DNA of 64,000 bases from an uncultured Litoreibacter sp. (GTDB taxonomy: Bacteria > Pseudomonadota > Alphaproteobacteria > Rhodobacterales > Rhodobacteraceae): positions 310,001 through 374,000 of the forward strand of contig CANNGL010000002.1 in assembly GCA_947504205.1 (NCBI GenBank), read 5' to 3'. The notes beneath the pieces were generated by a model. That model worked only from the letters and a program-made list of their open reading frames with translations. It did no database searches and was not told the DNA's origin. Positions 40,156 through 60,528 of this stretch are shown in pieces; the stretch's first letter is position 1, and every line of letters begins with the position of its first letter. The translations under genes and the position numbers were made by a program.

Positions 40156-40170
40156 CTCTGCGACTCCTTT

Positions 40171-40194
40171 ATTTAGTTTCATATGTAACTAAAT
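40171..40194. promoter_or_regulatory. palindromic operator in front of hmgA
   Basis: Perfect 8-bp arms ATTTAGTT (40171-40178) and AACTAAAT (40187-40194) around a central CATATG flanked by T. It lies 16 bp before the hmgA ATG. Size and symmetry suit a dimeric MarR regulator, most simply the one encoded at 32910-33359. A repressor here would block the promoter or the ribosome-binding site. Confidence 0.6.
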
Positions 40195-42312: not shown

Positions 42313-42329
42313 CATTTGCATACTAATGA
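42313..42329. promoter_or_regulatory. operator-like 17-mer before the molybdenum hydroxylase operon
   Basis: The complement reads TCATTAGTATGCAAATG. The same word with one change (TCATTAGTATGCACATG) occurs at 51099-51115, before the enamidase-like gene. Here it lies 24 bp before the first ATG of the operon that includes the MarR gene. A shared word at both control regions points to one regulator. Confidence 0.6.
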
Positions 42330-42353: not shown

Positions 42354-43190
42354 ATGGCGGATTATTTCCAGCCCGGAAATCTCGATGAGGCCTTGACCGT
42401 TATGCAGTCTCGCCCAGTGACGATTGTCGCCGGGGGCACTGATTATTTTCCGGCACGCGGCCATAGCCCGGTGCAACAGGACATCCTTGATGTGACCCGG
42501 ATTCAGGGCTTGCGTGACATATCACTGACCGCAGACGGAGATGTGCGTATTGGTGCGGCGGCGACATGGTCTGACGTCGTGAATGCTGATCTTCCGCCGT
42601 GCTTTGATGGGCTGAAGGCTGCGGGGCGAGAAGTTGGTAGCATTCAAATCCAGAACGCCGGAACCATTGCCGGTAATATGTGCAACGCGTCACCTGCGGC
42701 AGATGGTGTGCCACCTTTACTGACGCTGGATGCCGAAATTGAGCTTGCAGGACCGAATGGGCGACGGATGCTGCCTTTGTCGCAATTCATTCTTGGCCCA
42801 CGTCAAACCGCCCTTACGGAGGAAGAGTTGGTCGTCGCATTTCACATCCCGGCCCTCCGTCGCGATGTGCGAGGCGCATTTACCAAAATCGGCGCCCGCA
42901 AGTATCTGGTGATTTCCATTACCATGACGGCTGTTTGCATTGGTCTTGGACCAGATAAGCGGATCGATTTCGCCCGCGTCGCCGTTGGAGCGTGTTCGCC
43001 TGTGGCACTGCGGCTGACGGAGCTTGAGCATGCGCTTATCGGGCAGCGTCCAGACGCAGTTGAGATATCTGAGGCGCATTTGTCGTCCTTAGCTCCGATC
43101 TCGGACATTCGTGCAGATGCGGTCTATCGGCGCGAAGCCGTGGCCCATCAAATAAAACGCGCTATCGCGGCGGCTTCTGACAATGGATAA
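42354..43190 (+). CDS. molybdenum hydroxylase FAD-binding subunit
   Basis: A 278-residue CoxM/XdhB-type flavoprotein. The FAD pyrophosphate loops are VAGGTDYFPARG (about 30-41) and QNAGTIAGNMCNASPAAD (about 100-117), and a CO-dehydrogenase flavoprotein C-terminal domain covers about 175-275. It passes electrons from the 2Fe-2S centres of the partner subunit to an acceptor. The start at 42354 has GAGGA about 9 nt upstream. It overlaps the next gene by 8 bp. Confidence 0.93.
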   Translation: MADYFQPGNLDEALTVMQSRPVTIVAGGTDYFPARGHSPVQQDILDVTRIQGLRDISLTADGDVRIGAAATWSDVVNADLPPCFDGLKAAGREVGSIQIQNAGTIAGNMCNASPAADGVPPLLTLDAEIELAGPNGRRMLPLSQFILGPRQTALTEEELVVAFHIPALRRDVRGAFTKIGARKYLVISITMTAVCIGLGPDKRIDFARVAVGACSPVALRLTELEHALIGQRPDAVEISEAHLSSLAPISDIRADAVYRREAVAHQIKRAIAAASDNG

Positions 43191-45930
43191 GCGCGTGCCA
43201 TCCGATATGATCTCCTTCGCTTTGAATGGGCGCACGGTCGATTTGCGACCTCGTGCTGGCGAGAGACTGTCGGGGGCATTGCGCGAAAGCTGCGGGGCGC
43301 GTGATGTAAAAGTGGGTTGCGATGCGGGTGACTGCGGAGCCTGCACCGTTCTGGTCGACGGCGCGCCCGTTTGCGCCTGTCTGATGCCGGTCCATCAGGC
43401 ACAGGGACGCCGTGTCGAAACATTGCAGGGCTTGGTTAAGGCGGCCCCCGAGGCAAAGGCACTCAGCGAGAGTTTTCAGGATCATGGTGCTGCTCAATGC
43501 GGCATCTGCACTCCGGGCATGATGGTCTCGGCCGTTGCCCTGTTGCGTGACATCCCTAGCCCAAGCGTGGCGCAGGTGCAGGACGCGCTCGGTGGCGTTT
43601 TGTGCCGCTGCACGGGGTATCGCAAGATTATCGATGCGGTGGTGGGTGCGGGACAAATCCGCAGCACAACCAAGGACACAGGTCACACAGGTCAAGCCAT
43701 CCGCAGGCTGGATGGCGCAGGCAAGCTGGCCGGTACGGAAAAGTTCGGAGATGACGTTGCTCCGCCCGACACATTGGCGGTGCGTGTCATTCGATCTCCG
43801 TTCCACCGTGCCGCTTTCCGGTTCGATGACCTGGAGGACTGGGCGCAGAAAACACCGGGCATTGTTGCGGTGCTGAGTAGCGCAGACATCAACGGGCGAA
43901 ACTGTTTTGGCGTGATCCCGGATTTTGCTGATCAACCGGTATTTGCAGAACAGGAAACCAGATTTCGCGGGGAAGCCGTCGCCGCTGTGGTTGGAACTCC
44001 GGACGCAATCGCGGATTTTGACCCTGAGACCTTCCCAGTTGCGTGGGAAGAGCTTCCATCGGCCCTTGAAACTGAAGATGCGATGTCGGGCCGTGCTGCC
44101 CAGCTTCACAGCACACGCGATGACAATATCATGTGCAGCGGGTTTGTGACTTGTGGCGATCCGGATGCAGCATTGCACGCGGCGGATGTGAGTGTCGAAG
44201 GCCAGTTCACGACCCCCTTTGTCGAACATGCCTATATCGAACCGGAAGCCGGGTTTGCCAAAGTCGTCGATGGACGACTGGAAATTCATGCCTGCACTCA
44301 AGCTGCGGTCATGGATCTGGAGGCGCTTGAGGATATCTTGGCGTTGCCGCGTGGGGACATCCGAGTGGTGCCGACCGGTGTTGGCGGAGGCTTTGGCGCG
44401 AAGATAGATCTTTCGCTGCAGCCCTATCTGGCGCTGGCTGCTCTCAAGACCGGTAAGCCGGTGCGGATGGCTTATTCACGTACGGAGTCCATGCAGTCGA
44501 CGACCAAACGGCATCCTTCCGAAATCTCGATGAAGATCGGGGCCAAGCGAGATGGGACGATCAGCGGGATAGAGTTTTCAGGTCGTTTCAATACGGGCGC
44601 CTATGCAAGCTGGGGCCCGACTGTGGCGACGCGCGTGCCAATTCATGCTTCGGGGCCCTATCGTGTGGCGGACTACCGGGCCAAGGCGACGGGTGTTCAT
44701 ACGCATTGCGTGCCGGCCGGCGCTTTCCGAGGGTTTGGCGTACCTCAATCAGCCATTGCGCAGGAAAGCCTGTTTGATGAAGTGGCCGACAAGCTGGGGA
44801 TGGACCAGCTTGAGTTTCGCCTTCGCAACGCGCTGGACAATATGACACCCACCGTTTGCGGTCAGGTCTTTGGAAGCGGTGTCGGGATCAAAGCCTGTCT
44901 GACCGCTTTGCGTTCGAGTTGGGAGACCGAGAAAACGGCAGCTGCCACCTATAACGCTAGCCACACTGTGCTCAAGCGGGGCGTTGGGCTGGCAAGTGCG
45001 TGGTATGGCTGTGGAAATACATCCCTACCCAATCCGTCGGTGATCAAGGCTGGTATCCGGGCCGATGGCACGATTGTGCTGCATCAGGGCGCGATTGATA
45101 TCGGGCAAGGCTCTAACACGGTGATCGCCCAAATTTTCGCCACTGCACTGGGTATTGCCGTTCATAAGCTAACACTGGTTGGGGCCGACACCGATGTTAC
45201 ACCTGATGCGGGCAAGACCTCAGCCTCGCGGCAGACCTTCATCAGCGGTAATGCCGCGCGATTGGCTGGCGAGGCTCTGCGCGCGCGCATACTGAAACTG
45301 GTGAACGCGGACAAAACCTCCCGGATCGAATGTGGAGACGGCCATATCAAAGTGACTGACGGCGCGACGGCGCATCGGATCGACCTGGCCTCGCTAGAAA
45401 CAGATCGGGACGGCTATGTCCTGCAGGCTGAAGAGGCCTACGATCCCCCGACCAAACCCTTGGATAAAAACGGGCAAGGTGCGCCGTACGCACAGTTTGG
45501 ATATGCCGCACATCTGGCCGTTGTAGAGGTCGACATGCAGCTTGGTGCGGTTCGCCCCGTTCGTTTCGTGGCGGCCCATGATGTTGGCCATGCGATCAAC
45601 CCAATGCTGGTTGAGGGACAGGTTCACGGAGGGATTGCGCAGGGCTTGGGGATGGCTTTGATGGAAGAATACATCCCCGGGCGCACCGATAATTTGCACG
45701 ATTACCTGATCCCTACGATTGGTGATATTCCTGAGATTGAAACCGTGATCGTGGAGGAAGCGGACGCGCACGGGCCTTATGGGGCGAAAGGTTTGGGCGA
45801 GCATGTGTTGATCCCGACGGCCCCTGCTCTCTTGAATGCAATCAAGGATGCGACGGGCGTGCGGATCACTCAGGTTCCGGCGACGCCTGCGCGCGTCCGG
45901 GCCGCATTGCGGGAGCTTGGCGATGACTGA
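43183..45930 (+). CDS. fused 2Fe-2S and molybdopterin-binding hydroxylase subunit
   Basis: A 915-residue fusion. The first 165 residues are the 2Fe-2S subunit: plant-type cluster C46, C51, C54 and a following Cys near 64-66; second cluster C106, C109, C141, C143. The rest is the xanthine-dehydrogenase-type Mo domain with GVGGGFGAK, GAFRGFGVPQ and the catalytic Glu in GAKGLGEH. Usually these are separate subunits. Such enzymes hydroxylate N-heterocycles next to the ring nitrogen with water as oxygen source. The context points to a pyridine carboxylate as substrate (inference). Confidence 0.93.
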   Translation: MDKRVPSDMISFALNGRTVDLRPRAGERLSGALRESCGARDVKVGCDAGDCGACTVLVDGAPVCACLMPVHQAQGRRVETLQGLVKAAPEAKALSESFQDHGAAQCGICTPGMMVSAVALLRDIPSPSVAQVQDALGGVLCRCTGYRKIIDAVVGAGQIRSTTKDTGHTGQAIRRLDGAGKLAGTEKFGDDVAPPDTLAVRVIRSPFHRAAFRFDDLEDWAQKTPGIVAVLSSADINGRNCFGVIPDFADQPVFAEQETRFRGEAVAAVVGTPDAIADFDPETFPVAWEELPSALETEDAMSGRAAQLHSTRDDNIMCSGFVTCGDPDAALHAADVSVEGQFTTPFVEHAYIEPEAGFAKVVDGRLEIHACTQAAVMDLEALEDILALPRGDIRVVPTGVGGGFGAKIDLSLQPYLALAALKTGKPVRMAYSRTESMQSTTKRHPSEISMKIGAKRDGTISGIEFSGRFNTGAYASWGPTVATRVPIHASGPYRVADYRAKATGVHTHCVPAGAFRGFGVPQSAIAQESLFDEVADKLGMDQLEFRLRNALDNMTPTVCGQVFGSGVGIKACLTALRSSWETEKTAAATYNASHTVLKRGVGLASAWYGCGNTSLPNPSVIKAGIRADGTIVLHQGAIDIGQGSNTVIAQIFATALGIAVHKLTLVGADTDVTPDAGKTSASRQTFISGNAARLAGEALRARILKLVNADKTSRIECGDGHIKVTDGATAHRIDLASLETDRDGYVLQAEEAYDPPTKPLDKNGQGAPYAQFGYAAHLAVVEVDMQLGAVRPVRFVAAHDVGHAINPMLVEGQVHGGIAQGLGMALMEEYIPGRTDNLHDYLIPTIGDIPEIETVIVEEADAHGPYGAKGLGEHVLIPTAPALLNAIKDATGVRITQVPATPARVRAALRELGDD

Positions 45931-47413
45931 GAAACGAGAAAAGCCAGAGAAGATCCGCTGCGACGCCTGTCCGGTCATGTGCTATATCGCTGACGGCAAG
46001 TCGGGCGCCTGTGACCGCTATGCCAATCACGGCGGCGAGTTGGTCCGGTTGGATGCCTTAACGATCCTCGAGAGCACTGACCAAAAACTGGTCCCCTTTA
46101 TGAAGAACGGCGGGCCGGACGATTGGGACGGCAACATCGTGCAAGGTAACCGCCCTTTTGTCACTGCGGTTGGCGCAGGCACGACCTATCCCGATTACAA
46201 ACCCGCACCTTTTATCGTCAGCCAAGAAGTCGAAGGCGTCGATATGGTCACGGTCGTGACGGAAGGAATATTCTCCTACTGCGGCGTGAAGGTGAAAATC
46301 GATACCGACCGCCATATCGGTCACGAGCGCGATATCGTGCGTGTGGAGGGTGAGCCGATTGGACATGTGATGACCTCGGAATATGGCTCAAAGATGCTGT
46401 CGCTGGGGGGTGTTGAACATCTCACGGGCGGGTCGAAAGCCGAAGGCCGGGTGACCTGTGACGCTTTGCTGAAATTGTGCAACCGTGAAGCGGTGAACAT
46501 GGTGATCGGCGAAGATGACCATCAGACCGAGATAGTCGTTCAGGCAGGCCGCGCACCGGTAATCAACGGTGTGGAAGAACAGCTGATGCGGGTTGGCTGT
46601 GGGTCTGCAGCGATCGGCATGTTTGCCAAGCAATGGCTGGGGCATGTCGATGAGGTCGTTGTGGTGGACGATCATATCACGGGTGTGTTGTCCGAGCATG
46701 AAGCCGGAAAGCAGCTGGATGTCCCGCGCACTGGGATCAAGATCAAGGGTCGTCGCTCGACACCGGGTCGCTATTTTCAGGTCGCCGATCCCGGCACCGG
46801 CTGGGGCGGGACGAATATCGAAGACCCGCTGACAATATTGGGGCCGTTTAACCCGAAGATCGCCTGGGCCGGATTGCGCTTGCTGATGGTTTCGACCACG
46901 GGAGAGCAGTTCGCGTATTTCGAACTTGATGACGATCTTGTACCGCAACCTGCAGAGATACCTCAGAGGTTGAAAGCGTCTGCCGACTTGATCGCCGAAA
47001 ATTGCGAACCTTCCGTATGCTCTGTTCTATTCATGGGTGGCGCTGGTGGAAGCCTGCGGGCAGGTGTGACCGAAAACCCGGTGCGACTGACCCGATCCGT
47101 CAAGGACTCTCTGACCTATGTCTCCTGCGGTGGTGCTGAGGCATTCGTCTGGCCCGGTGGCGGTATCACCGTGATGGTCGACATCCTGAATATGCCACAA
47201 GGCTCGTTCGGGTATGTGCCCACACCCGCGCTGGTCGCACCGATCGAATTCACAATGCGTGTGGAGGATTACGGGACGTTGGGTGGGTACACCGGCGAAA
47301 TCAAGACCATTGAGACCATCGAGACCGCCCGCACACGCAAGGTCGCTCAGTTTGATGGACAGCCGGACCCGACGGATCACGCAAACTACCGCTGGGCAAA
47401 GGGGCGCCAATGA
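45923..47413 (+). CDS. 6-hydroxynicotinate reductase-like protein
   Basis: A 496-residue protein of the family annotated as 6-hydroxynicotinate reductase after Eubacterium barkeri Hnr. An N-terminal cysteine group (C13, C16, C20, C30) can bind an iron-sulfur cluster. Glycine-rich loops VGCGSAAIGMFA and MGGAGGSLRAGVTENP are conserved-looking features further on. Hnr reduces the ring of 6-hydroxynicotinate to tetrahydro-6-oxonicotinate. It follows the Mo hydroxylase with an 8-bp overlap, the right order for hydroxylation then ring reduction. Identity of the substrate is inferred. Confidence 0.8.
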   Translation: MTEKREKPEKIRCDACPVMCYIADGKSGACDRYANHGGELVRLDALTILESTDQKLVPFMKNGGPDDWDGNIVQGNRPFVTAVGAGTTYPDYKPAPFIVSQEVEGVDMVTVVTEGIFSYCGVKVKIDTDRHIGHERDIVRVEGEPIGHVMTSEYGSKMLSLGGVEHLTGGSKAEGRVTCDALLKLCNREAVNMVIGEDDHQTEIVVQAGRAPVINGVEEQLMRVGCGSAAIGMFAKQWLGHVDEVVVVDDHITGVLSEHEAGKQLDVPRTGIKIKGRRSTPGRYFQVADPGTGWGGTNIEDPLTILGPFNPKIAWAGLRLLMVSTTGEQFAYFELDDDLVPQPAEIPQRLKASADLIAENCEPSVCSVLFMGGAGGSLRAGVTENPVRLTRSVKDSLTYVSCGGAEAFVWPGGGITVMVDILNMPQGSFGYVPTPALVAPIEFTMRVEDYGTLGGYTGEIKTIETIETARTRKVAQFDGQPDPTDHANYRWAKGRQ

Positions 47414-48270
47414 CCGCTCAGGCTTCCCTTCTGACCGGCAATCGGTTGCATTTGCAGCATGGTCCGATCGATCTGATTATCGGAGCGACGGCATCGGACG
47501 AGGCCCGCGAGAAAGCGTTTTCGGCAGCGCAAATTCGCTTCGAAACCGTGCTGGATGAATTGGTTGCGGAGCTGCCGTTGCTGCGTCGGCCGATGACGTC
47601 CTCCTCCCCCGCTCCCGACGGGGCAATTGCGCAGCGGATGGATCGTGCCACACGGCCCTTTGCAGGTGAGTTCATCACGCGTATGGCAGCAGTGGCCGGG
47701 TCGGTGGCCGATACAATATTGGCCGCAATGCTGCATGCGGCACCTTTGCGCCGGGCCTACGTCAACAATGGCGGGGATATCGCGCTGCATCTGTCGAAAA
47801 ACAAGAGCTTTGTCACAGAGATGTCTGACCATTCAGGACGACCGCTGGGCCGCATCACGATCAGCTCTGATCAGGGCATCGGGGGGATGGCGACGTCAGG
47901 TCGGCATGGACGCAGCCATTCGTTTGGGATCGCCGATAGCGTCACCGTATTGGCTGGATCAGCGGCCTCTGCCGACGCTGCCGCCACTTTGATTGCAAAT
48001 GCAGTGGATTTACCTGGGCATCCGGCAATACGCCGCACCGCCGCGAATGCGCTCGATCCGAACACTGATCTTGGCGAGCGTCTGGTGGTGACTGACTGTG
48101 CAGCCTTGTCCGAACAAGAGGTTGGCGCAGCCCTGACGGTTGGGCTTCGTCGCGCCAAAGCCATACGGTCTAACGGTCAAATCGCTGCGGCAGCTTTATT
48201 TCTGGATGGGCAAGTCCAACTGCTCGGATCCTCATTTACTCACCCTCAACGGAGCCTGACTGATGCCTGA
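47410..48270 (+). CDS. UPF0280 family protein
   Basis: A 286-residue protein of the ApbE-like UPF0280 family: VNNGGDIALHLS, GGMATSGRHGRSHSFG and a Thr/Ala-rich DAAATLIANAVD segment. The fold is related to FMN transferases, but no activity is known for UPF0280. The gene is locked between the Hnr-like gene (4-bp overlap) and the first DUF1185 gene (8-bp overlap). An attractive guess is flavin attachment to, or maturation of, a pathway protein. Confidence 0.85.
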   Translation: MTAQASLLTGNRLHLQHGPIDLIIGATASDEAREKAFSAAQIRFETVLDELVAELPLLRRPMTSSSPAPDGAIAQRMDRATRPFAGEFITRMAAVAGSVADTILAAMLHAAPLRRAYVNNGGDIALHLSKNKSFVTEMSDHSGRPLGRITISSDQGIGGMATSGRHGRSHSFGIADSVTVLAGSAASADAAATLIANAVDLPGHPAIRRTAANALDPNTDLGERLVVTDCAALSEQEVGAALTVGLRRAKAIRSNGQIAAAALFLDGQVQLLGSSFTHPQRSLTDA

Positions 48271-48844
48271 TATTATTCTGCGAAAGACCGTTTTGACGCG
48301 GGAGGATGTCTTTCACGAAGGCGGACCTGCGACAGGTAAACCGCTTTTGAGAGGCTCCATTATGGCTGTGATCAAGAATCCTTTCGCGGGTCGTTACGAG
48401 CCGGAAATTCAGCACTTCATGGAGGATCTGAAACCGCTCGGGCTGGACATGGCGCGCAAACTGGCCGAGGCGTTGGGTGGCGCGGACCTGATCGAGGGAT
48501 ATGGCAAGGGCGCTATTGTCGGAGAAGCTGGCGAAATTGAGCACGGGGCTTTGTGGCACGTGCCGGGCGGCTATGCGATGCGCGAACTTCTGGGAGATGC
48601 CAAGGCGATCGTTCCCTCCACCAAGAAGGTTGGTGGTGTTGGCGCACGGCTGGATGTGCCCGTCACGCATATCAACGCCTCTTATGTGCGAGGTCATTTT
48701 GATGCGATGGAAGTTGGCGTCAATGACGCGCCGCGCGCGGACGAAATGGCGGTTGTTCTGGTGATGACAACCGGTGGACGGATCCATGACCGCGTAGGTG
48801 GGTTGGCTGCGGCTGATATCGAGGGAAAGGACGGATTGAGATGA
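48263..48844 (+). CDS. DUF1185 ('amino acid synthesis') protein, first copy
   Basis: A 193-residue DUF1185 protein. Typical strings are VIKNPFAGRYEPEIQ, LGVADLIEGYGK-like (GGADLIEGYGKGAIVGEAGEIEHGA), VPSTKKVGG and DAPRADEMAVVLVMTTGGR. The family name in databases refers to amino acid synthesis, without firm biochemistry. A second copy follows directly with a 4-bp overlap. In this island it may act on the ring-opened, amino-acid-like product. Confidence 0.85.
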   Translation: MPDIILRKTVLTREDVFHEGGPATGKPLLRGSIMAVIKNPFAGRYEPEIQHFMEDLKPLGLDMARKLAEALGGADLIEGYGKGAIVGEAGEIEHGALWHVPGGYAMRELLGDAKAIVPSTKKVGGVGARLDVPVTHINASYVRGHFDAMEVGVNDAPRADEMAVVLVMTTGGRIHDRVGGLAAADIEGKDGLR

Positions 48845-49425
48845 GCGCCAAGATTCGCAAAATTGCCGTTACGGTCGAGGAAACGCATCTCGAAATCGGG
48901 CGTACGATTTCGCCACCCACCCGTAAGGCGGTTGCGATCGCCGTGATCGAAAATCCGTTTGCGGGCAGTTATCAAGAAGACCTGTCGGACTTGATGGAGA
49001 TCGGGGCTGAGATGGGCGCATTGCTTGGCGACAAATGCGTCGCGGCGCTAGGCATTCAGCCTGCGGAGGCTGAAAGCTACGGTAAATCCGCAATGGTCGG
49101 TGAAAATGGAGAACTGGAGCACGCCGCCGCGATTTTGCATCCTCAACTGGGCGCGCCTTTACGAAAAGCCGTCGAAAAAGGGGCCGCGCTTGTGCCATCA
49201 TCCAAGAAGATGGGCAGCCCCGGGCAAGTGCTGGATGTGCCTTTGGGGCACAAAGATGCAGCCTATGTGCGTAGCCATTTCGACGGTATCGAGGTTCGTT
49301 TGAATGATGCACCGCGCGCCAACGAGATCATGGTAGCGGTCGCAGTGACGGATAGCGGGCGTCCCTTGCCTCGTGTTGGCGGGCTGAAGTCGGATGAGGC
49401 CGAGGGCAAAGACGGTCTGCGATAA
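48841..49425 (+). CDS. DUF1185 ('amino acid synthesis') protein, second copy
   Basis: A 194-residue paralogue of the preceding gene. Shared motifs: VIENPFAGSYQED, AESYGKSAMVGENGELEHAA, VPSSKKMGSPG and NDAPRANEIMVAVAVTDSGR. The copies differ enough to be old, so they may form a heteromer or act on successive intermediates. It starts inside the stop of the first copy (ATGA) and precedes the MarR gene by 32 bp. Confidence 0.85.
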   Translation: MSAKIRKIAVTVEETHLEIGRTISPPTRKAVAIAVIENPFAGSYQEDLSDLMEIGAEMGALLGDKCVAALGIQPAEAESYGKSAMVGENGELEHAAAILHPQLGAPLRKAVEKGAALVPSSKKMGSPGQVLDVPLGHKDAAYVRSHFDGIEVRLNDAPRANEIMVAVAVTDSGRPLPRVGGLKSDEAEGKDGLR

Positions 49426-49457
49426 CTACGCGTGTCAGGTTGGCGAAAGGTCATGGA

Positions 49458-49895
49458 ATGACTGAAACAGAGACCACAATAGAAGAGACCTATCAGCTTG
49501 ATCAGCAAGTGGGTTTCTTGTTGCGGTTGGCCAATCAACGACACGCCGCGATTTTTCAGGACCATGCTGTGGGCGATCTGACACGCACACAATTTGCCGC
49601 CATCGCGCGTCTGGCCGAGCATGGCAGATGCTCCCAGAACCAGTTGGGGCGTTATGCGGCCATGGATATCGCTACAATCAAGGGGGTCGTCGACCGCCTC
49701 AAACAAAAGGGGCTTGTCGGCACCGAGCCATCTCAGGATGACAAACGCCGCAGCCTGATCTCTCTGACGCCCAAGGGTGAGGCGTTGGTGGAAGACCTAC
49801 ATCGCGCTGGCCGTGAAATTTCGCGGGCCACACTCGCGCCTTTGACCCCTGCCGAGCAGCGCAGCCTGCTCAAGCTATTAGGGAAACTGGCGTAG
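49458..49895 (+). CDS. MarR family regulator of the heterocycle island
   Basis: A 145-residue MarR protein. The winged helix is at about 45-105 (HGRCSQNQLGRYAAMDIATIKGVVDRLKQKGLV, wing QDDKRRSLISLTPKG). It is the last gene of the Mo hydroxylase operon and converges on the enamidase-like gene. It probably represses all three transcription units through the TTAGTAT-containing sites at 42313, 51099 and 51214, and is released by the substrate or an intermediate (inference). Confidence 0.9.
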   Translation: MTETETTIEETYQLDQQVGFLLRLANQRHAAIFQDHAVGDLTRTQFAAIARLAEHGRCSQNQLGRYAAMDIATIKGVVDRLKQKGLVGTEPSQDDKRRSLISLTPKGEALVEDLHRAGREISRATLAPLTPAEQRSLLKLLGKLA

Positions 49896-49907
49896 GGCGC
49901 TGGCGCT

Positions 49908-51071
49908 TCAAACCACTTCGGGCAGCTTGTTGGCGGGGGGTGTGTTCCGGCTTCGGTGGCTTGTGATCTTTCCGTCAATGATGGTCATACCAACACCGGG
50001 CAAGTTCCCAAGTTGCACCGATTCAAGCAGGTTCTTTCCCGGGGCGTGCTGCGCCTGATCCATCAGAACAAAGTCTGCAGAATATCCGGCCTCAATCAAT
50101 CCTACGTCCAGCTCCCGCCGACGCGCCGTGTTTCCGTTGGCAAAGCAAAATGCCGTCTCTGCCGGCACGTTCCCCAACGAGGACAACATAGCGACCATCC
50201 GCATAATGCCCAACGGCTGCACGCCCGAGCCCGCAGGACCATCGGTGCCGAGGATGATCTGATCGAGCTTGTCCAATTCGCGCGCGGTGTTCAGTGTCAA
50301 AAGCGCTGCGCGTTCATTGCCGTTGTGAACAATCTCCAATGCGGCTGTGCAGTTTTCGCAAAGACAAACAATCTGGTCGTCTGGCAAGGCCGAGTGACCG
50401 CCATTGATATGACCCACAACATCCGTCCCGGTTTCAAGCACCATATCCGCATCGATCAGTCCTGATCCCGGAATAGACGGCCCGCCGGTGTGGATCGTGC
50501 TTTGAATGCCGTATTTGCGCGCCCAGTCGACCATCTGATTGGCGGTCTTACCGTCTTTGACGGTGCCCAATCCCACCTCACCCAGCAGCTTCACGCCCGC
50601 ATCGGCGAGGTCTTTGAAATCCTGCTCTTCCATCCCGTGCTCAATCACCGGAGCACCTGCATGCACCTTGACGCCCGAGGGTCGGAAATTTTCGTACCAA
50701 CGCTGTGCGGCAATCGCCATTGCCTTAAGACCCACGACGTCTTTGGGACGGCCCGGCATGTGAACCTCACCTGCGGAAATGAGGGTTGTCACCCCTCCAT
50801 GAAGCGTTGAATCGATCCAGTGGAGTTGCTGCTGACGCGGGGTGTAATCCCCCACAACAGGGTGGATATGACTGTCAATCAGGCCCGGGGCGAGCGTTGT
50901 TCCATGGGCGTCCACCACAGTTGTAGCCCCATCTGTATCGAGGTTGCTTTCCTGACCCCAAGCGGTGATTTTACCATCCTCGGCAATCATGCAGTCGCCA
51001 TCGGCAATCGGCGCTTCGATTTTGCCTGTCAAAATCATGCCGATGTTCTTGATTACGAGTTTTTCGGCCAT
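49908..51071 (-). CDS. enamidase-like amidohydrolase
   Basis: A 387-residue amidohydrolase-superfamily enzyme. Metal ligands are in DSHIHP, GEVGLGT, IHTGGPSIPGS, HINGGHSA and TDGPAGSG. The stretches GDYTPRQQ, HGGVTTLISAGEVHMPGRPKD and the C-terminal RNTPPA agree with my memory of Eubacterium barkeri enamidase, which opens the tetrahydro-6-oxonicotinate ring to 2-formylglutarate and ammonia. Divergent from the Rieske gene, it shares their control region. It is the only minus-strand gene of the island. Confidence 0.82.
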   Translation of the reverse strand: MAEKLVIKNIGMILTGKIEAPIADGDCMIAEDGKITAWGQESNLDTDGATTVVDAHGTTLAPGLIDSHIHPVVGDYTPRQQQLHWIDSTLHGGVTTLISAGEVHMPGRPKDVVGLKAMAIAAQRWYENFRPSGVKVHAGAPVIEHGMEEQDFKDLADAGVKLLGEVGLGTVKDGKTANQMVDWARKYGIQSTIHTGGPSIPGSGLIDADMVLETGTDVVGHINGGHSALPDDQIVCLCENCTAALEIVHNGNERAALLTLNTARELDKLDQIILGTDGPAGSGVQPLGIMRMVAMLSSLGNVPAETAFCFANGNTARRRELDVGLIEAGYSADFVLMDQAQHAPGKNLLESVQLGNLPGVGMTIIDGKITSHRSRNTPPANKLPEVV

Positions 51072-51098
51072 TGCGCTCTCCCAACTTGGCGGTTCAAC

Positions 51099-51227
51099 TC
51101 ATTAGTATGCACATGACTTACCACAAAGAAAGCCTTGTCCGTCGGGGCCAGTTTCAAAAATTGGCGCGCGACGGATTCGGCACCGCAAAGGCGCACTCAG
51201 TCAGGCTCATTCCGTTAGTATACTAAC
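51099..51227. promoter_or_regulatory. divergent control region with two TTAGTAT-type operators
   Basis: TCATTAGTATGCACATG (51099-51115) lies 28 bp before the enamidase-like start and repeats the 17-mer at 42313-42329 with one mismatch. The perfect palindrome GTTAGTATACTAAC (51214-51227) lies about 80 bp before the Rieske start. Both contain TTAGTAT, so one dimeric regulator could control both directions. The MarR protein at 49458-49895 is the nearest candidate. Confidence 0.62.
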
Positions 51228-51305
51228 AAAAATCATTGACTCGTCCTACATTCCACGGCTCAATTCAGAAAGTGGACCACCAGAAGGCCGGGAGGGGATG
51301 TTTCT

Positions 51306-52373
51306 GTGAGCTTTGTAAAAAACGCTTGGTACGTTGCAGGCTGGTCCAGTGCGTTCGGGGAGGATCTCAAAGCGCTTGAAATTACCGGCCAGAAGCTGGT
51401 GATGTTTCGCGACACCACCGGTAAGGTCAAAGCTCTTGAAGATCGTTGCCCGCATCGCCTCCTACCGCTGTCAAAAGGAAAGCGTATCGGCGACACGATC
51501 CAGTGCGGCTACCATGGGATGACGTTTGACGGCAGCGGGCAATGTGTGCGCGTGCCCGGTCAGGACAACACACCGGCCAGCGCCTACGTTGAAGCGTTTC
51601 AGGTTGAGGAGCGCCACGGAATTGTTTGGGTTTGGATGGGTGAGCCGGCGCGGGCCAATCCAGATGATATCTTCAATCTTCCGCAGTTTTCCGACCCCGA
51701 TTGGCATGCCCATCAAGGTGAAGCGCTACATATCACCGCAAACTATCTGAATGTCGCTGAAAATCTGGTCGACCCTGCCCATGTCAGTTTTGTGCATCCG
51801 ACGACACTTGGAAATGCGGCCAGCGAAAATGTCCCGGTGCATGTCTCGACAAGCGGCGAGGTAATATCGGCATGGCGCTGGATCAGAGATGCCCCGCCTA
51901 TCGGGTTTTTCCAGAAGTTCGGAGGCTTCGATGGCCATGTAGATCGTTGGCATTATTACGATTTGCACCTGCCCACCACGGCGGTGATCGATTTCGGAAG
52001 CGTCGACACGAAAATGAACTGTCCCGAAGATGAACGGGACCGCGGCGTGCGCATATTCGCGCTGCATTTCGTCACGCCGGTGACCGAGGACTATACGATT
52101 GATCATTGGATGCATCTGCGGAACACGGCTGTGGGCGACGACGCCGCTTCTGCGCAGATGGACACGATGTTCAATACAGCGTTCGCGGAAGACAAAGCCA
52201 TTCTCGAAGCCATCCACGAGAGCGAACAGCGTCCGCAACGGCGCAGGCCTATCCGGGTGGCTATCGACAAAGGACCAAATGTCTATCGCAAGCGCATTCG
52301 CGATATGATTGTCTCGGAATCAACCGAAGATCTTGGTGAACCGGTCAAGCCGGTCTTCATCCAACACGACTGA
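51306..52373 (+). CDS. VanA-type Rieske non-heme iron oxygenase
   Basis: A 355-residue oxygenase component. The Rieske 2Fe-2S ligands are C48-x-H50 and C67-x2-H70 (RCPHR, CGYHG), and the mononuclear iron site is D156, H159, H164 (VDPAHVSFVH). The start is a GTG at 51306 with GGGAGGGG upstream. VanA-type enzymes often remove O- or N-methyl groups. No reductase (VanB-like) gene is in the island, so an external one must serve. It leads the unit with the ABC importer. Confidence 0.9.
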   Translation: MSFVKNAWYVAGWSSAFGEDLKALEITGQKLVMFRDTTGKVKALEDRCPHRLLPLSKGKRIGDTIQCGYHGMTFDGSGQCVRVPGQDNTPASAYVEAFQVEERHGIVWVWMGEPARANPDDIFNLPQFSDPDWHAHQGEALHITANYLNVAENLVDPAHVSFVHPTTLGNAASENVPVHVSTSGEVISAWRWIRDAPPIGFFQKFGGFDGHVDRWHYYDLHLPTTAVIDFGSVDTKMNCPEDERDRGVRIFALHFVTPVTEDYTIDHWMHLRNTAVGDDAASAQMDTMFNTAFAEDKAILEAIHESEQRPQRRRPIRVAIDKGPNVYRKRIRDMIVSESTEDLGEPVKPVFIQHD

Positions 52374-52407
52374 CGAACAGTCGATCCCATCAACAGAGAG
52401 GACCACC

Positions 52408-53613
52408 ATGCAACGAAAGACATTTCTAAAGGCGCTGCTTGCTACAGCTGCTCTGGCGACCATGCCGTTGAGCGCAGTGGCGCAAGACACGATCAAAATC
52501 GGTGAAATCAACCACTACAAACGACTGGCCGCTTTCGCCGAGCCTTACAAAAAGGGGATCGAGCTTGCGCTGGAGGAAGCCAATGCCGCCGGTGGCGTTC
52601 TGGGCAAACAGCTGGAGTTCATTTTCCGAGATGATCAGGGCGAACCGGGCGAAGCTGTAAAGATCGCTGAGGAATTGATGACCCGCGAAGGGGCTGTGAT
52701 GCTGACCGGGACGATCTTGTCCAATGTGGGTTTGGCGATCTCCTCGTATGCTGGGGAGAAGGGATATGTCTATCTGGCCTCTGAACCACTGGCAGATTCA
52801 TTGGTTTGGGCAGCCGGGAACAAATACACCTTCCGTCTACGCGCCTCGACCTTCATGCAGGCCGCGATGCTGGCTGAAGCAGCCGCAAAAACAGACGCAA
52901 AGCGTTTTGCAACGATCGCGCCGAACTACGCATACGGTAAAGATGCTGTCGCGGCGTTTAAGGAAAACCTTCTGAAGCTGAAGCCTGATGCGGAGTTCGT
53001 AGCCGAGCAATGGCCAGCGCTTTTCAAGATTGATGCAGGTGCCGAAGTGCAAGCGCTGGAGCGGGCTAAGCCAGATGCGATTTACAACGTTACCTTTGGG
53101 CCTGACCTTGCCAAGTTCGTTCGTGAGGGCGGTGATCGCGGATTGTTTGAAGGACGTGGTGTCTACGGTCTGTTGTCGGGTGAGCCAGAATATATCGACC
53201 CGCTTGGTGACGAAGCGCCAGAGGGTTGGACGGTGACCGGCTACCCTTGGTACGATCTCAATGATGGGCCGGGCGGCGATTTCGTTTCCGCCTATCAGAC
53301 CCGCTGGGACGACTACCCACGGATCGGGTCGCTGGTTGGTTACATGACCGTGCAATCCATTGTCGCCGCGCTTGAGAAGGCCGGGTCCACCGAAACAGAA
53401 GCCATTCGGGATGCCTTCGAGGACCTTGGCGTCAGTACGCCAGTGGGTGACATCACGTTCCGGTCCAGCGATCACCAGTCCACCATGGGTGCCTATGTCG
53501 GCACCACGGCTCTGCGCGATGGGAGAGGGGTCATGGTCGATTGGGACTACAAAGAGGGCGCAAACTATCTGCCTTCCGCAGAAGAGGTCGCGAAACTGCG
53601 CCCCGCTGACTAA
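52408..53613 (+). CDS. branched-chain-amino-acid-type ABC substrate-binding protein
   Basis: A 401-residue periplasmic binding protein (type I fold) with a signal peptide (about 1-25, ending AVAQ). Typical parts are GKQLEFIFRDDQGEPGEAVKIAEELM and TFRLRASTFMQAAMLAEAA. Such proteins bind amino acids but also aromatic and heterocyclic acids. It lies 34 bp after the Rieske gene and before the permease and ATPase genes, so it should deliver the pathway substrate. Confidence 0.92.
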   Translation: MQRKTFLKALLATAALATMPLSAVAQDTIKIGEINHYKRLAAFAEPYKKGIELALEEANAAGGVLGKQLEFIFRDDQGEPGEAVKIAEELMTREGAVMLTGTILSNVGLAISSYAGEKGYVYLASEPLADSLVWAAGNKYTFRLRASTFMQAAMLAEAAAKTDAKRFATIAPNYAYGKDAVAAFKENLLKLKPDAEFVAEQWPALFKIDAGAEVQALERAKPDAIYNVTFGPDLAKFVREGGDRGLFEGRGVYGLLSGEPEYIDPLGDEAPEGWTVTGYPWYDLNDGPGGDFVSAYQTRWDDYPRIGSLVGYMTVQSIVAALEKAGSTETEAIRDAFEDLGVSTPVGDITFRSSDHQSTMGAYVGTTALRDGRGVMVDWDYKEGANYLPSAEEVAKLRPAD

Positions 53614-53619
53614 AGCAAT

Positions 53620-53654
53620 GGCCACTGCCCGGGGTCATCATCCGGGCAGTGGCC
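53620..53654 (+). promoter_or_regulatory. strong intergenic hairpin between binding protein and permease
   Basis: Perfect 13-bp arms GGCCACTGCCCGG (53620-53632) and CCGGGCAGTGGCC (53642-53654) with a 9-nt loop and no T run. Stem-loops in this position protect the upstream mRNA from decay, giving more binding protein than permease. The role is inferred from the position. Confidence 0.65.
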
Positions 53655-53684
53655 GATCAGACGCTTCCGACCTGACAGGCTTTC

Positions 53685-55544
53685 ATGGAACTTTTTGTAG
53701 CTCAGATCATCACTGGGCTGGCAAATGCCAGCTCTCTGTTTCTCGTGGCCTGCGGGTTATCCCTGATTTTCGGGGTTACACGCATTGTGAATTTTGCCCA
53801 TGGCAGCCTTTACATGCTGGGCGCCTATATAGGCTATTCACTGATGCAGGTACTGCCCGGGGCGTTCGGCTTTTGGGGTGCAATTCTACTTGCGGGTATT
53901 GCCGTTGGCTTGGTCGGAGTTCTTGTGGAAATGCTGGTTCTGAGACCGGTTTACCGCGCACCTGAACTCTTCCAGCTTGTTGCCACGTTCGGAGTTATTC
54001 TCGTCGTTCAGGATCTGGCACTCATCATATGGGGGCCCGAAGATCTGCTGGGACCGCGTGCGCCAGGCTTGCGCGGGGTTTACCGCATCATGGGCGAGCC
54101 CATTCCAAAATACGATATCGTCCTTCTGCTGATCACCCCATTTATCGCATTAGCGCTATGGTACCTGATCGCCCGCACGCGCCTCGGCGTTCTGGTGCGC
54201 GCGGCCACCCAGGACCGCGAGATGGTCGGCGCTCTGGGGGTCAATCAGGCCTGGTTGTTCACTGGGGTCTTCGCGCTAGGCTCTGCGTTGGCGGGTCTGG
54301 GTGGCGCGCTGCAACTGCCCAAGGGCGGTGCAGATCTTTTGATGGACTTTAATATCCTCGCGCCCGTTTTCGTTGTGGTGGTCATCGGAGGCATGGGCTC
54401 CCTGCCCGGTGCCTATCTTGCGGCCATCATAATCTCGGTTCTCAACGTCTTCGGGGTGACCTATCTGCCGCAATCCACACTCGTTTTGATGTTTGTCGTC
54501 ATGATCGTTGTCTTGATGATCCGGCCCTATGGCCTGTTTGGCCGCGAAGAGGTTGCGGGCGAACATGGGCAAGTGGGTGAGCCAGAGCTGCCGATCAAGC
54601 CGGCTTCGCCAAATGTGCGCATGATCGTGGCGGCCGGTCTCATAATCCTGGCCCTTCTTCCGCTCTATGGATCATCCTTCTCGCAAGTGCTTGCAACGGA
54701 CATTCTGATCTTCTGTCTCTTCGCAGCCAGTTTGCATTTCTTGTTGGGACTGGGCGGCTTGGTCAGTTTCGGGCACGCGGCGTATTATGGCGGCGGAGCT
54801 TATGTCGCCGCATTGCTCGTGACCCATGCCGATAGCCCGATGGAGCTTGCTTTCCTTCTTGCACCCCTGGGCGCGGGGCTGGCGGCGCTGGCCATCGGTT
54901 GGGTCTGTCTACGGCTGACCGGTGTTTACTTCGCCATGCTGACGCTGGCTTTCGCACAGCTGCTCTGGAGCCTCGTCTTTCAATGGGGAGATGTGACTGG
55001 CGGCGATGATGGTCTGGTCAATCTTTGGCCTGCTGATTGGTTGAATGACACGACCGTCTACTTCTATTTTACCCTGCTCTTTGCAGTGGGTGGCATTCTG
55101 ATGCTCAGACATGTCGCACATTCGCCCTTTGGCTATGCGCTTCGGGCTGCACGGGACAGCCAGAGACAAGCCGAGTCAACGGGGATCGACACCCGGCGTG
55201 TACAGTTGCTCGCCTTCGGGTTTGCAGGTCTGATGGGCGGTTTGGCTGGCGCGTTGTTTGTCTTCTCAAAAGGCAGTGTGTTTCCCAATGAACTTGAGAT
55301 CGCGCGTAGCTTTGACGCCTTGATCGTTGTGTTCCTCGGCGGGGTCAAAACACTGGCAGGCGGCGTGGTTGGCGGCGCCTTCTTCAAAGGCGTCGAAGAT
55401 ATCCTGACGCGCTTTGAGTATTGGCGATTGGTCATGGGCTTCCTGATTATCTTCGTCGTCATCTTGGCGCCTGAAGGCATTGCAGGATCAATGCGGAAAC
55501 TTGTCAGACGGCTGCAATCCTCCAAAACAGGAGGAAGCCAATGA
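53685..55544 (+). CDS. fused LivH-LivM ABC permease
   Basis: A 619-residue protein joining two permeases that are normally separate. Residues 1-285 are LivH-like (GLSLIFGVTRIVNFAHGSLYMLGAY) and about 315-605 are LivM-like (GLGGLVSFGHAAYYGGGAYVAA), with a charged linker at about 285-312. There are about 16 membrane helices in all. It forms the channel of the importer with the ATPases that follow. Its stop overlaps the LivG-type start (ATGA). Confidence 0.92.
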   Translation: MELFVAQIITGLANASSLFLVACGLSLIFGVTRIVNFAHGSLYMLGAYIGYSLMQVLPGAFGFWGAILLAGIAVGLVGVLVEMLVLRPVYRAPELFQLVATFGVILVVQDLALIIWGPEDLLGPRAPGLRGVYRIMGEPIPKYDIVLLLITPFIALALWYLIARTRLGVLVRAATQDREMVGALGVNQAWLFTGVFALGSALAGLGGALQLPKGGADLLMDFNILAPVFVVVVIGGMGSLPGAYLAAIIISVLNVFGVTYLPQSTLVLMFVVMIVVLMIRPYGLFGREEVAGEHGQVGEPELPIKPASPNVRMIVAAGLIILALLPLYGSSFSQVLATDILIFCLFAASLHFLLGLGGLVSFGHAAYYGGGAYVAALLVTHADSPMELAFLLAPLGAGLAALAIGWVCLRLTGVYFAMLTLAFAQLLWSLVFQWGDVTGGDDGLVNLWPADWLNDTTVYFYFTLLFAVGGILMLRHVAHSPFGYALRAARDSQRQAESTGIDTRRVQLLAFGFAGLMGGLAGALFVFSKGSVFPNELEIARSFDALIVVFLGGVKTLAGGVVGGAFFKGVEDILTRFEYWRLVMGFLIIFVVILAPEGIAGSMRKLVRRLQSSKTGGSQ

Positions 55545-56317
55545 CCGTTGTTCTCGAAACAAAGGGCCTGACAAAATCCTTTGGTGGGCTCGTAGCAGTC
55601 GATGACGTCTCGTTCCAGCTTCACAAGGGGGAGCTATTGGCGCTGATCGGACCCAATGGCGCAGGAAAAAGCACCTGCTTCAACATGCTTATGGGGCAGT
55701 TGAAACCGACCGCTGGCGAAGTGTTTCTACAAGGTGAAAACGTCACCGGTCTGACGCCCCGGCGGATTTGGCGCAAGGGTGTGGGGCGGACATTCCAGAT
55801 CACCTCGACCTATGCCTCGATGACCGTGATCGAAAACGTTCAGATGGCGCTTCTGTCGCATAATGGTGAAGTGTTTCGGTTCCTCAGCTTCGCGCACAAG
55901 CGCTACCGCGAGGAAGCGATGGCGCTTCTGGACATGGTCGGTATGGCTGAGCAGGCAGAGCGTCACTGTGCGGTGCTGGCCTATGGCGATCTCAAACGCA
56001 TGGAGTTGGCGATCGCTCTGGCCCATGATCCAGCCCTGTTGCTGATGGATGAGCCGACGGCAGGGATGGCCCCCAAGGAGCGGGTGGCGCTGATGCAACT
56101 GACCTCCGATATTGTGGCGGATCGCGGCGTCAGCGTGTTGTTTACTGAACATGACATGGATGTGGTATTTTCCCATGCGCATCGGATCATGGTGCTCAAC
56201 CGCGGCGCCTTGATTGCCGAAGGCACAGCAGCGGACATTCGCAACAGCGAACTTGTTCAGGAAGTCTATCTGGGCGGCGGCACGCTGTTCAGTGCGGAAG
56301 AGGACGCCCATGCTTGA
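55541..56317 (+). CDS. ABC transporter ATP-binding protein (LivG type)
   Basis: A 258-residue ATPase: Walker A GPNGAGKST, signature region LAYGDLKRMELAIALA (a LivG-like departure from LSGGQ), Walker B LLLMDEPTAGM, and the LivG C-terminal tail ending in YLGGGTLF. It powers the importer with the LivF-type subunit. Overlaps the permease by 4 bp and the next gene by 8 bp. Confidence 0.94.
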   Translation: MTVVLETKGLTKSFGGLVAVDDVSFQLHKGELLALIGPNGAGKSTCFNMLMGQLKPTAGEVFLQGENVTGLTPRRIWRKGVGRTFQITSTYASMTVIENVQMALLSHNGEVFRFLSFAHKRYREEAMALLDMVGMAEQAERHCAVLAYGDLKRMELAIALAHDPALLLMDEPTAGMAPKERVALMQLTSDIVADRGVSVLFTEHDMDVVFSHAHRIMVLNRGALIAEGTAADIRNSELVQEVYLGGGTLFSAEEDAHA

Positions 56318-57011
56318 GATTGACAACATCAACAGCTTTTATGGCAAAGCCCATGTGTTGCGCGACCTCAGCTTCTCTGTGCCACGTGGCAAGGTTGTTG
56401 CCTTGCTTGGCCGAAATGGTGCGGGCAAAACCACAACGATGAAGTCGATCATGCAGCTTGTGCGGCCTGAGACCGGGCGTATCCAGTTTGGCGATCATGC
56501 CATTGTCGGACTGCCCCCGCACAAAGTTGCAAAGCTGGGGATGGGATATGTTCCCGAAGAACGGCGCGTCTTTACTGATCTGACCGTTGCAGAAAACCTA
56601 TTGGTTGGGCGTCAACCGCCCAGAGAGGGCGCTGTCACATGGACAGAGGAGATGCTGTTCGAGCTATTTCCCAACCTAGCGGAACGTCGCAACAATCGTG
56701 GCAAAGCACTTTCGGGCGGGGAGCAGCAGATGCTGACCATTGCGCGTACGCTGATGGGCAACCCCTCTTTTGTTCTGCTTGATGAACCAAGCGAGGGGGT
56801 GGCACCCGTGATCGTGGAGCAGATGGCGAAGGTCATCCAGCAGCTAAAATCTGAAGGCCTGACAGTCCTTTTATCCGAACAAAATCTGCATTTTGCGCAG
56901 GCTGTGGCTGATCTGGCCGTGATCATAGAAAGCGGCGCGCAGGTGTTTTACGGGTCTTTGACTGAGTTGAATGCCAAGCCTGAAATACGCGACGCCTATC
57001 TGGCCGCTTAA
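56310..57011 (+). CDS. ABC transporter ATP-binding protein (LivF type)
   Basis: A 233-residue ATPase: Walker A GRNGAGKTT, signature LSGGEQQMLTIARTL, Walker B FVLLDEPSEGV. The start MLEIDNINSFYGKAHVLRDL is canonical; the frame extends upstream only inside the LivG-type gene. It is the last gene of the heterocycle island. The 190 bp behind it hold no gene and lead into the iron transport genes. Confidence 0.94.
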   Translation: MLEIDNINSFYGKAHVLRDLSFSVPRGKVVALLGRNGAGKTTTMKSIMQLVRPETGRIQFGDHAIVGLPPHKVAKLGMGYVPEERRVFTDLTVAENLLVGRQPPREGAVTWTEEMLFELFPNLAERRNNRGKALSGGEQQMLTIARTLMGNPSFVLLDEPSEGVAPVIVEQMAKVIQQLKSEGLTVLLSEQNLHFAQAVADLAVIIESGAQVFYGSLTELNAKPEIRDAYLAA

Positions 57012-57204: not shown

Positions 57205-58233
57205 ATGTCGCTCAATTCGAAAATTTCCACCTTGGCGCTTGCTTCGGCAGCGGTATTGGGTGGCTCCTTTGCCGTCTGGGCCGAGGGCGAGCTGAACCTC
57301 TATTCCTCGCGCCACTATGATACAGATGAACGTCTTTATTCTGATTTTACCGACGCGACCGGGATCACAATCAACCGCATCGAAGGTAAGGCCGATGAAC
57401 TGATCGCGCGGATGGAGGCTGAAGGCGCCAATTCCCCCGCCGACATTCTGCTGACTGTCGATACATCACGTCTTGAGCGCGCTAAAAATGCGGGTGTCCT
57501 GCAATCCATCGACAGCGCAATTCTGGAAGAACGCATTCCCGCCAACCTGCAAGACAGCGACAATCAGTGGTTTGGCTTCTCGCAGCGCGCCCGGATCATC
57601 TTCTATGACAAAGCCGACGTGCAGGATCCCCCAATGGATTACGTCTCGCTGGCGGATCCAAAATACAAAGGTCAGGTTTGTCACCGGTCTTCGTCCAACG
57701 TCTACAGCCAGACCTTGCTGTCCGCGATCATTGAAAATCATGGCGAAGAGGCCGCCAAATCCTGGGCTCAAGGTGTGGTCGACAACTTCGCACGCGAACC
57801 AGAGGGCGGTGATACCGATCAGCTTCGTGGCCTTGTCTCGGGTGAATGCGATGTTTCCATCTCGAACACCTATTATTTTGCCCGGGCATTGCGCAAAGAC
57901 GTGAGTGGTCTTTCCTCTGACATCGACAAAATTGGAGTCGTATTCCCGGCGCAAGATGCCGAGGGCGCCCATATGAACCTGTCAGGCGGTGGTGTCGCTG
58001 CCCATGCGCCCAATAAAGAGAATGCGATCAAGTTCCTCGAATATCTGGCCTCCGATCAGGCACAACAATATTTCTCGGCGGGCAATGATGAGTTCCCGGC
58101 TGTCCCAAGTGTTCCGGTAAGCGAAAGCGTCGCGAAGCTTGGAAGTTATAAGGCCGATGATGTCAGCCTTTCGGACGTCGCCAAAAACGTGCCGGCTGCC
58201 CAAAAGATTTTCAACGAAGTTGGTTGGAAATAG
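57205..58233 (+). CDS. ferric iron ABC transporter substrate-binding protein
   Basis: A 342-residue FbpA/FutA-type binding protein with a signal peptide (about 1-26, ending VWAEG). The mature part starts LNLYSSRHYDTDERLYSDF, and a paired-tyrosine stretch SNTYYFAR near the C-terminal lobe is where FbpA proteins bind ferric iron. AGGAG lies before the ATG. The permease gene is convergent behind a shared terminator. No ATPase gene for this system is nearby. Confidence 0.92.
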   Translation: MSLNSKISTLALASAAVLGGSFAVWAEGELNLYSSRHYDTDERLYSDFTDATGITINRIEGKADELIARMEAEGANSPADILLTVDTSRLERAKNAGVLQSIDSAILEERIPANLQDSDNQWFGFSQRARIIFYDKADVQDPPMDYVSLADPKYKGQVCHRSSSNVYSQTLLSAIIENHGEEAAKSWAQGVVDNFAREPEGGDTDQLRGLVSGECDVSISNTYYFARALRKDVSGLSSDIDKIGVVFPAQDAEGAHMNLSGGGVAAHAPNKENAIKFLEYLASDQAQQYFSAGNDEFPAVPSVPVSESVAKLGSYKADDVSLSDVAKNVPAAQKIFNEVGWK

Positions 58234-58255
58234 GTCAGGCTTCTCAAACGACGAC

Positions 58256-58284
58256 AAAGGGCGCGGTTTTTGCCGCGCCTTTTT
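58256..58284. terminator. terminator between the two iron transport genes
   Basis: AAAGGGCGCGG (58256-58266) and CCGCGCCTTTTTC (from 58273) pair with a single bulge around TTTTTG, giving a T run on the plus strand and A-rich flank on the other. It serves both convergent genes. Confidence 0.8.
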
Positions 58285-58286
58285 CG

Positions 58287-59924: not shown

Positions 59925-59999
59925 AGCTTAGCGGCGTCCACCTTTGGGATAGGCAATAGGTAATTCAGATTATCTTGGGGAAACAGTCGCAAAATTTAA

Positions 60000-60042: not shown

Positions 60043-60110
60043 ACGAAAAATCCGAATCCCAGCCACCTGTTTTCAGATCAGCCCGGAGCACGCAAACTAG
60101 GAGGCCCAAG

Positions 60111-60427: not shown

Positions 60428-60528
60428 GCAGAAAACGTCCAAGCTGATCTTTGAAACGAGATCGCTGCATCCTAGCTAAGACAATGGGCGAACTCAGAGG
60501 CCCGATTGTTTCGTAAGGTCCTCATGCG

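Follow-up and report, generated by a model that had tools for sequence, protein, structure and literature searches.

The locus described here raises the question of whether an aerobic bacterium, kin to the marine roseobacters, breaks down a pyridine acid by reducing the ring before opening it, as in the nicotinate pathway of Eubacterium and Azorhizobium. It is an island at positions 42354–57011 of the window, which is the whole 64,000-nucleotide stretch of DNA that was analysed, and the host genome, that of an uncultured Litoreibacter sp., is 3.79 Mb in 10 contigs. The island is real and well conserved, and it probably is an aerobic version of this reductive pathway. The core route is known; what is new by comparison is the apparent swap of the ring opener, the fold of the UPF0280 protein, the linkage of a Rieske oxygenase to an importer, and a recurring palindrome. 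The first three of these are the parts worth following.

Gene content and presumed regulation of the island

Domain and PDB searches found all genes named in the original prediction, and at the right positions. Its gene list was incomplete in one respect, as a UPF0280 gene and two DUF1185 genes, which are part of the conserved core, were not named there. The features of the island are:

42315–42326, plus strand: candidate operator copy 5' of the hydroxylase operon, two mismatches from the palindrome at 51215
42354–43190, plus strand: Mo hydroxylase FAD subunit (Pfam PF00941, PF03450; PDB 1ffv_C at 2.1e-25, 3hrd_C at 5.5e-22)
43183–45930, plus strand: fused [2Fe-2S] and molybdopterin hydroxylase subunit (PF01799, PF02738, PF20256; PDB 1dgj, 3hrd_A, 3hrd_B; GxGE at residue 870)
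45923–47413, plus strand: Hnr, 6-hydroxynicotinate reductase homologue (names in plasmid records; alignment of 140 rows and tree)
47410–48270, plus strand: UPF0280 protein with an ApbE-superfamily fold, candidate flavin-handling or flavin-transfer partner of Hnr (NF003322; AlphaFold2, Foldseek, hhalign)
48263–48844, plus strand: AAs1, PF06684/DUF1185 protein (Pfam)
48841–49425, plus strand: AAs2, PF06684/DUF1185 protein (Pfam)
49440–49895, plus strand: MarR family regulator (domain match; an in-frame ATG at 49458 may be the true start)
49908–51071, minus strand: enamidase homologue, ring-opening amidohydrolase (match to 2vun, residues 3–384)
51215–51226, no strand: palindromic candidate operator between the divergent enamidase and Rieske genes (pattern search; relatives)
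51306–52373, plus strand: Rieske oxygenase of VanA/DdmC type, candidate demethylase (PF00355 and PF19112; DdmC, 3gb4)
52408–53613, plus strand: importer substrate-binding protein (PF13458; the listed reading frame starts at 52309, the ATG at 52408 is more likely)
53685–55544, plus strand: importer fused permease LivH-LivM (PF02653, two stretches)
55541–56317, plus strand: importer ATPase LivG (PF00005, PF12399)
56310–57011, plus strand: importer ATPase LivF (PF00005; start codon chosen)

Consecutive genes from the FAD subunit to the second DUF1185 gene are joined by overlaps of 4 or 8 bases, and the same is true of LivHM, LivG and LivF. One island encodes a Mo hydroxylase, an Hnr homologue and an enamidase homologue together, and its gene order is found again in relatives. 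Named genomes contain at least 592 stretches that encode Hnr relatives (the 80 best were kept), and this number and the recurring gene order imply that the island is far from a chance arrangement. The later fermentative genes, which the original prediction had not seen, are indeed not among the genes annotated inside it. Directly upstream lies a homogentisate catabolic set (36957–40182) with genes for a fumarylacetoacetate-hydrolase family protein, a metallo-hydrolase and homogentisate 1,2-dioxygenase. On the other side the island is adjoined by what by appearance is a separate iron-type uptake set (57205–62983), consisting of a binding protein, a two-domain permease, a TOBE-domain ATPase and a ferritin-like protein.

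The palindrome is 12 bases long, and it and the copy 5' of the hydroxylase operon are the 2 matches within two mismatches in the window, as compared to a mean of 0.19 in shuffled sequences (3 of 100 shuffles reach 2). It recurs in the relatives. After deduplication it was found, with at most two mismatches, 5' of 39 of 111 FAD-subunit genes and 27 of 62 enamidase genes, where shuffles gave about 1%; the upstream regions of Hnr had it in 11 of 138 cases, those of AAs1 in none of 114 and those of LivG in none of 41. The pattern of enrichment was alike before deduplication. Presumably the MarR regulator controls the hydroxylase and enamidase promoters through this shared candidate operator, on the assumption that it binds the palindrome.

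The reductase homologue and the UPF0280 protein

Hnr has no match in Pfam or NCBIfam, and against the PDB nothing better than E=0.27 was found; a profile of 34 rows was likewise without a match. Its identity comes from annotated relatives. There are 26 matching plasmid records, 17 named 6-hydroxynicotinate reductase or hnr, 3 named hypothetical protein and 6 where the gene is unannotated, and with six plasmid proteins, each recorded as 6-hydroxynicotinate reductase, Hnr shares 58–83% identity. The Hnr of two Afipia relatives is 70% identical to that of the window, and the published homologue of strain SG-6C is given as 42% identical to E. barkeri Hnr in the text of PMC3511419. A predicted fold based on 34 sequences reached a pLDDT of 70.3 and had no Foldseek match under 0.001, and was set aside.

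In the alignment of 140 rows seven cysteines are invariant (140/140), while C179 is found in 139 and C186 in 134. Hnr reportedly contains a covalent flavin, one [2Fe-2S] cluster and two [4Fe-4S] clusters, and the number of conserved cysteines is below what ligation of these clusters by cysteine throughout would need.

Hnr is present in 60 of the 196 genomes of the order sample and in 32 of the 398 of the phylum sample, the own genome included in both. One Hnr genome (G150) is a fragment, and 59 were used in the counts at genome level. No relative was found in the viral contigs searched. The first three genes of the pathway are said, in an abstract from 2006, to be present in nine Proteobacteria. 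In one genome (G211, C1:2969823–2971225) Hnr appears as two adjacent matches, each in an open frame of its own, and the gene may be broken or split.

The gene next to Hnr is conserved with it. Among 139 deduplicated relative loci, some of them on short contigs, UPF0280 is found in 134, at least one DUF1185 gene in 129 and both in 98. From the 136 Hnr-negative genomes, 80 that belong to the same family were examined as controls and none of them has UPF0280, the positives being Hnr loci that were searched separately. The AlphaFold2 model of the UPF0280 protein has a pLDDT of 95.3 and a pTM of 0.92, and with this model Foldseek gave 26 PDB matches at E<=0.001, all of them DVU1097 or flavin transferases of the ApbE/FmnB/Ftp kind, with query TM-scores of 0.35–0.59 that make it a remote match. 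A one-to-one hhalign comparison of the UPF0280 profile with 10 ApbE proteins of relatives gave E=2.1e-07 and a probability of 89.7%, and the alignment pairs the Ser of ATSG and the Asp of the AD...T motif. The conserved catalytic residues of ApbE are Ser, His and Asp, as given in the accessible part of PMC12052999, and by our own mapping the aligned Ser and Asp may correspond to two of these three. The segment that carries the His in ApbE is missing from UPF0280 in the hhalign alignment, which leaves the catalytic set incomplete, and unlike ApbE/FmnB the protein has no PF02424 match. The ApbE target D-x-x-[ST]-G-A-[ST] occurs in none of the 140 Hnr rows. Instead, 139 of them have DHITG-x-x-[ST], which exceeds the standard target by one residue. 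A PF02424 protein is absent from this genome, while 12 of the 26 genomes searched have one.

On these observations a role with flavin is likely for UPF0280, but for transferase activity it is a candidate only. In the literature searched, which covers few subscription journals, no role was found for UPF0280 or for the HyuAB clade described below, and the accessible part of the ApbE review PMC12052999 mentions neither UPF0280 nor DUF375.

Proposed ring openers and the Rieske cassette

For the enamidase homologue the PDB search gave a full-length match to E. barkeri enamidase (2vun) with E=1.8e-105, the next match being at 3.3e-05. The positions H68, H70, E165, H194, H221 and D277, which we take to be the metal ligands, are identical in all 67 enamidase sequences, the window included. 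When the window protein was used as query (E<=1e-30), an enamidase was found in 35 of the 59 Hnr genomes, at 75–100% identity in 32 of them and at 50–52% in 3. The other 24 have an orthologue of HyuA, of the hydantoinase/5-oxoprolinase family, which is 62–88% identical to the Sagittula stellata query (limit E<=1e-100), whereas the best copy in the 35 enamidase genomes reaches 45%. The two sets are exact complements and no genome has both, nor does any row at the level of the locus. None of the 80 Hnr-negative relatives has a HyuA above 44% identity (11 have a paralogue at 42–44%), and an enamidase match was found in one of them, at 43%. The window carries no HyuA orthologue, and its genome only a 34%-identical paralogue.

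To the 140 rows of the Hnr tree (FastTree) openers were assigned from whole genomes in 58 cases and from neighbourhoods in 52, in addition to the window, and 29 rows are unlabelled. The opener switches at least five times on this tree, also with starred branches only, and we read the pattern as one hydrolase having been replaced by another. Our literature search, which reached few subscription journals, found no paper on HyuAB in nicotinate breakdown.

It is conceivable, if somewhat doubtful, that the HyuA-type genomes degrade a different substrate, and that the split between openers reflects this and not a replacement of the enzyme. ATP-dependent hydrolases of the HyuA family usually act on unactivated lactams, and one branch of the tree (support 83) unites 22 of the 34 Hyu rows. 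Furthermore, six of the 24 Hyu genomes have HyuA far from Hnr, at a distance of 61 kb in one case and on a separate contig in the others; three of the five opener changes depend on such genomes, among them the change at L051, the Hyu row closest to the window. A difference in substrate would on the other hand have to account for so many changes and for a Hyu row that shares a starred group of four rows with the window. It would also have to be reconciled with the nicotinate-dehydrogenase-type hydroxylase of the rhizobial Hyu loci, and with the lack of a HyuA orthologue in every one of the Hnr-negative relatives. We keep to the replacement of one hydrolase by another, and the comparison of loci suggests that the ring opener and the upstream part may be interchangeable modules.

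One further locus, on the Pleomorphomonas plasmid pSM30-1 (L036), combines Hnr and UPF0280 with a single DUF1185 gene and with HyuAB-type genes, whose annotation is that of acetophenone carboxylase subunits; it has neither a hydroxylase nor a Liv importer within 10 kb.

The Rieske oxygenase has its best PDB match in dicamba O-demethylase DdmC (3gb4, 6.2e-40), and caffeine N-demethylase NdmA is found at 5.1e-18. A row was counted as having the Rieske gene at 60% identity or more, and as having the importer type of the window when the binding protein was at least 66% identical; the Rieske matches of L110 (36%) and L160 (54%) fall below the line and were not counted. This importer type is present in 23 of the 24 Rieske rows, as compared to 4 of the 116 rows without the Rieske gene (140 rows; Fisher p 3e-21, not corrected for kinship). 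In kinship-independent pairs from starred branches the importer goes in the same direction in a mean of 5.6 of 7 and in the opposite direction in none, with a median p of 0.031 (range 0.031–0.125). Sixteen of the Rieske rows have the enamidase, 6 have Hyu and 2 are unlabelled, and since the cassette stands beside both openers it is best read as an upstream funnel. The enzyme would then perhaps feed the core by N-demethylation of trigonelline, a step suggested by the substrate of the core. The original prediction proposed a reductive route in spite of the linkage of this gene; we see no conflict, as it behaves like an accessory cassette with its own importer type.

It is also possible, and we lean against it, that the oxygenase has nothing to do with Hnr and is only co-located, as the ring oxygenase of a parallel oxidative route or as an O-demethylase. 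The top PDB chain is an O-demethylase, with NdmA far weaker, and the gene is missing in 116 of 140 rows. The palindrome is not enriched 5' of the Rieske genes of relatives either (2 of 24, at shuffle level on average). Co-location alone would however not lead one to expect a single importer type in nearly all Rieske rows, or the presence of the cassette beside enamidase- and Hyu-type cores alike. No ring-cleavage dioxygenase is annotated in the island, and the homogentisate dioxygenase lies outside it, about 2 kb upstream. The upstream funnel is the reading that we retain.

In two loci (L033 2737–4200 and L031 4146–5555) a protein of about 470–490 residues without a Pfam match is encoded beside another Liv-type importer, and proteins of this type recur in many Hnr loci.

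Probable pathway and substrate

The original prediction of hydroxylation, ring reduction and hydrolytic opening is supported by the homology of the Mo hydroxylase, Hnr and the enamidase. The Mo region of the hydroxylase scores 237 bits to E. barkeri NdhL and 213.8 to NdhM, which cover adjacent halves, and 302.8 bits to 4-hydroxybenzoyl-CoA reductase across the whole region; the sum of the two Ndh scores exceeds any single chain, summing being a rough comparison. Among single PDB chains, aldehyde oxidoreductase scores highest with the large subunit (366.7 bits, the [2Fe-2S] part included), and for the FAD subunit CO dehydrogenase CutM is a slightly better match than NdhF. The ranks of single PDB chains do not single out nicotinate dehydrogenase, and an identification on that ground was rejected.

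In the pathway that we infer for this organism, substrates and all chemistry included, the Liv-type importer would take up the substrate and the FAD/2Fe-2S/Mo enzyme would hydroxylate nicotinate at C6. Hnr would then reduce 6-hydroxynicotinate to 1,4,5,6-tetrahydro-6-oxonicotinate, with electrons probably from a ferredoxin system, and the enamidase would hydrolyse this compound to 2-formylglutarate and ammonia. The UPF0280 protein would probably help to provide the covalent flavin of Hnr, while the two DUF1185 proteins belong to the conserved core without an assigned step. As an upstream add-on, the Rieske enzyme and the importer that travels with it would most likely demethylate an N-methyl pyridine acid to the core substrate, with trigonelline as the first choice. 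The carbon would enter central metabolism via glutarate, as published for Azorhizobium (PMC3511419). Our best guess is nicotinate as the substrate, with trigonelline feeding in.

That the lower pathway differs from the fermentative one, as was proposed earlier, agrees with the homologies found and with the Azorhizobium route. A family III CoA-transferase, looked for in loci L031–L094 only, is encoded directly 3' of the enamidase on the same strand in 5 of the 7 loci having one. That of L048 has succinate-glutarate CoA-transferase as its best match, at 525.7 bits, below the cut-off of 750. In the window there is neither a CoA-transferase nor an island-borne ferredoxin-NADP reductase, the nearest copies being on other contigs or in other places. 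No gene of the genome passes the same cut-off, and since the best match (466 bits) lies elsewhere and below it, the glutarate route is supported for the relatives only. This gene stands beside an acetolactate-synthase-like gene and is not claimed as part of the lower pathway. A ferredoxin-NADP reductase gene is found near Hnr in 33 of the 139 relative loci, and the nearest one in the genome of the window, 57% identical, is on another contig.

Reduction of the anaerobic type in an aerobe, which had been presented as a surprise, is an established route and not a new one, as it has already been described for Azorhizobium and Bradyrhizobiaceae (PMC3511419). According to the text and legend of that paper, which cites Kitts 1989/1992 and Alhapel 2006, a nicotinate cluster with an Hnr homologue is present in Azorhizobium caulinodans, Bradyrhizobium, Rhodopseudomonas palustris HaA2 and strain SG-6C. 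As in the island, an aerobic host there combines Hnr with the genes for steps one to three, a putative ABC transporter and conserved proteins (two in the published cluster) whose function is unknown. By the same text and legend, the window differs in having an added Rieske gene, which comes with an importer type of its own. In two Afipia loci (L166, L174) Hnr is accompanied by UPF0280, MarR and the enamidase, by a single DUF1185 gene or two of them, and by importer genes in the same order. Where the window has an FAD/2Fe-2S/Mo hydroxylase these loci have a NicB-like type, which shares 50–52% identity with an annotated nicotinate dehydrogenase subunit B. With E. barkeri (ndhFSLM, hnr, ena; 3hrd, 2vun) the island shares the full-length enamidase, the Mo hydroxylase superfamily and, by annotation, Hnr. 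It differs in its Mo subunit, a single chain that includes the [2Fe-2S] part by fusion, and in lacking the fermentative lower genes.

It is unlikely that the substrate of the core is a different pyridine or lactam acid, such as 6-hydroxypicolinate from homarine or picolinate, and that the nicotinate labels are inherited annotation: homarine is a marine metabolite with a pathway in environmental bacteria (a 2026 paper, as cited in the accessible part of PMC13390433) and the Rieske/importer cassette suggests a methylated substrate, but the enamidase is strongly conserved, relatives with the same core use a nicotinate-dehydrogenase-type hydroxylase, and a picolinate-type enamide should by our reasoning yield 2-oxoadipate, which would make the CoA-transferase beside the enamidase unneeded. 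Homarine itself is less likely as the substrate, nothing in its favour having been found in the literature that was accessible.

We tentatively suggest that Hnr, UPF0280 and DUF1185 could form a portable reductive core. UPF0280 would be a hitherto unrecognised ApbE-superfamily factor that flavinylates Hnr, the opener would be either the enamidase or the ATP-dependent HyuAB, and various hydroxylases and the Rieske demethylase/importer cassette would be plugged in upstream. The replacement of the enamidase by HyuAB, and a partner with an ApbE fold for a covalent-flavin reductase, would point to functions of UPF0280 and of the HyuAB clade. If the pathway is right, genomes could be scored for it by Hnr and one of the two openers. 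It would also imply that a widespread roseobacter-like group, although it respires oxygen, can reduce the ring in order to use nicotinate-type acids and perhaps N-methyl pyridine acids as well.
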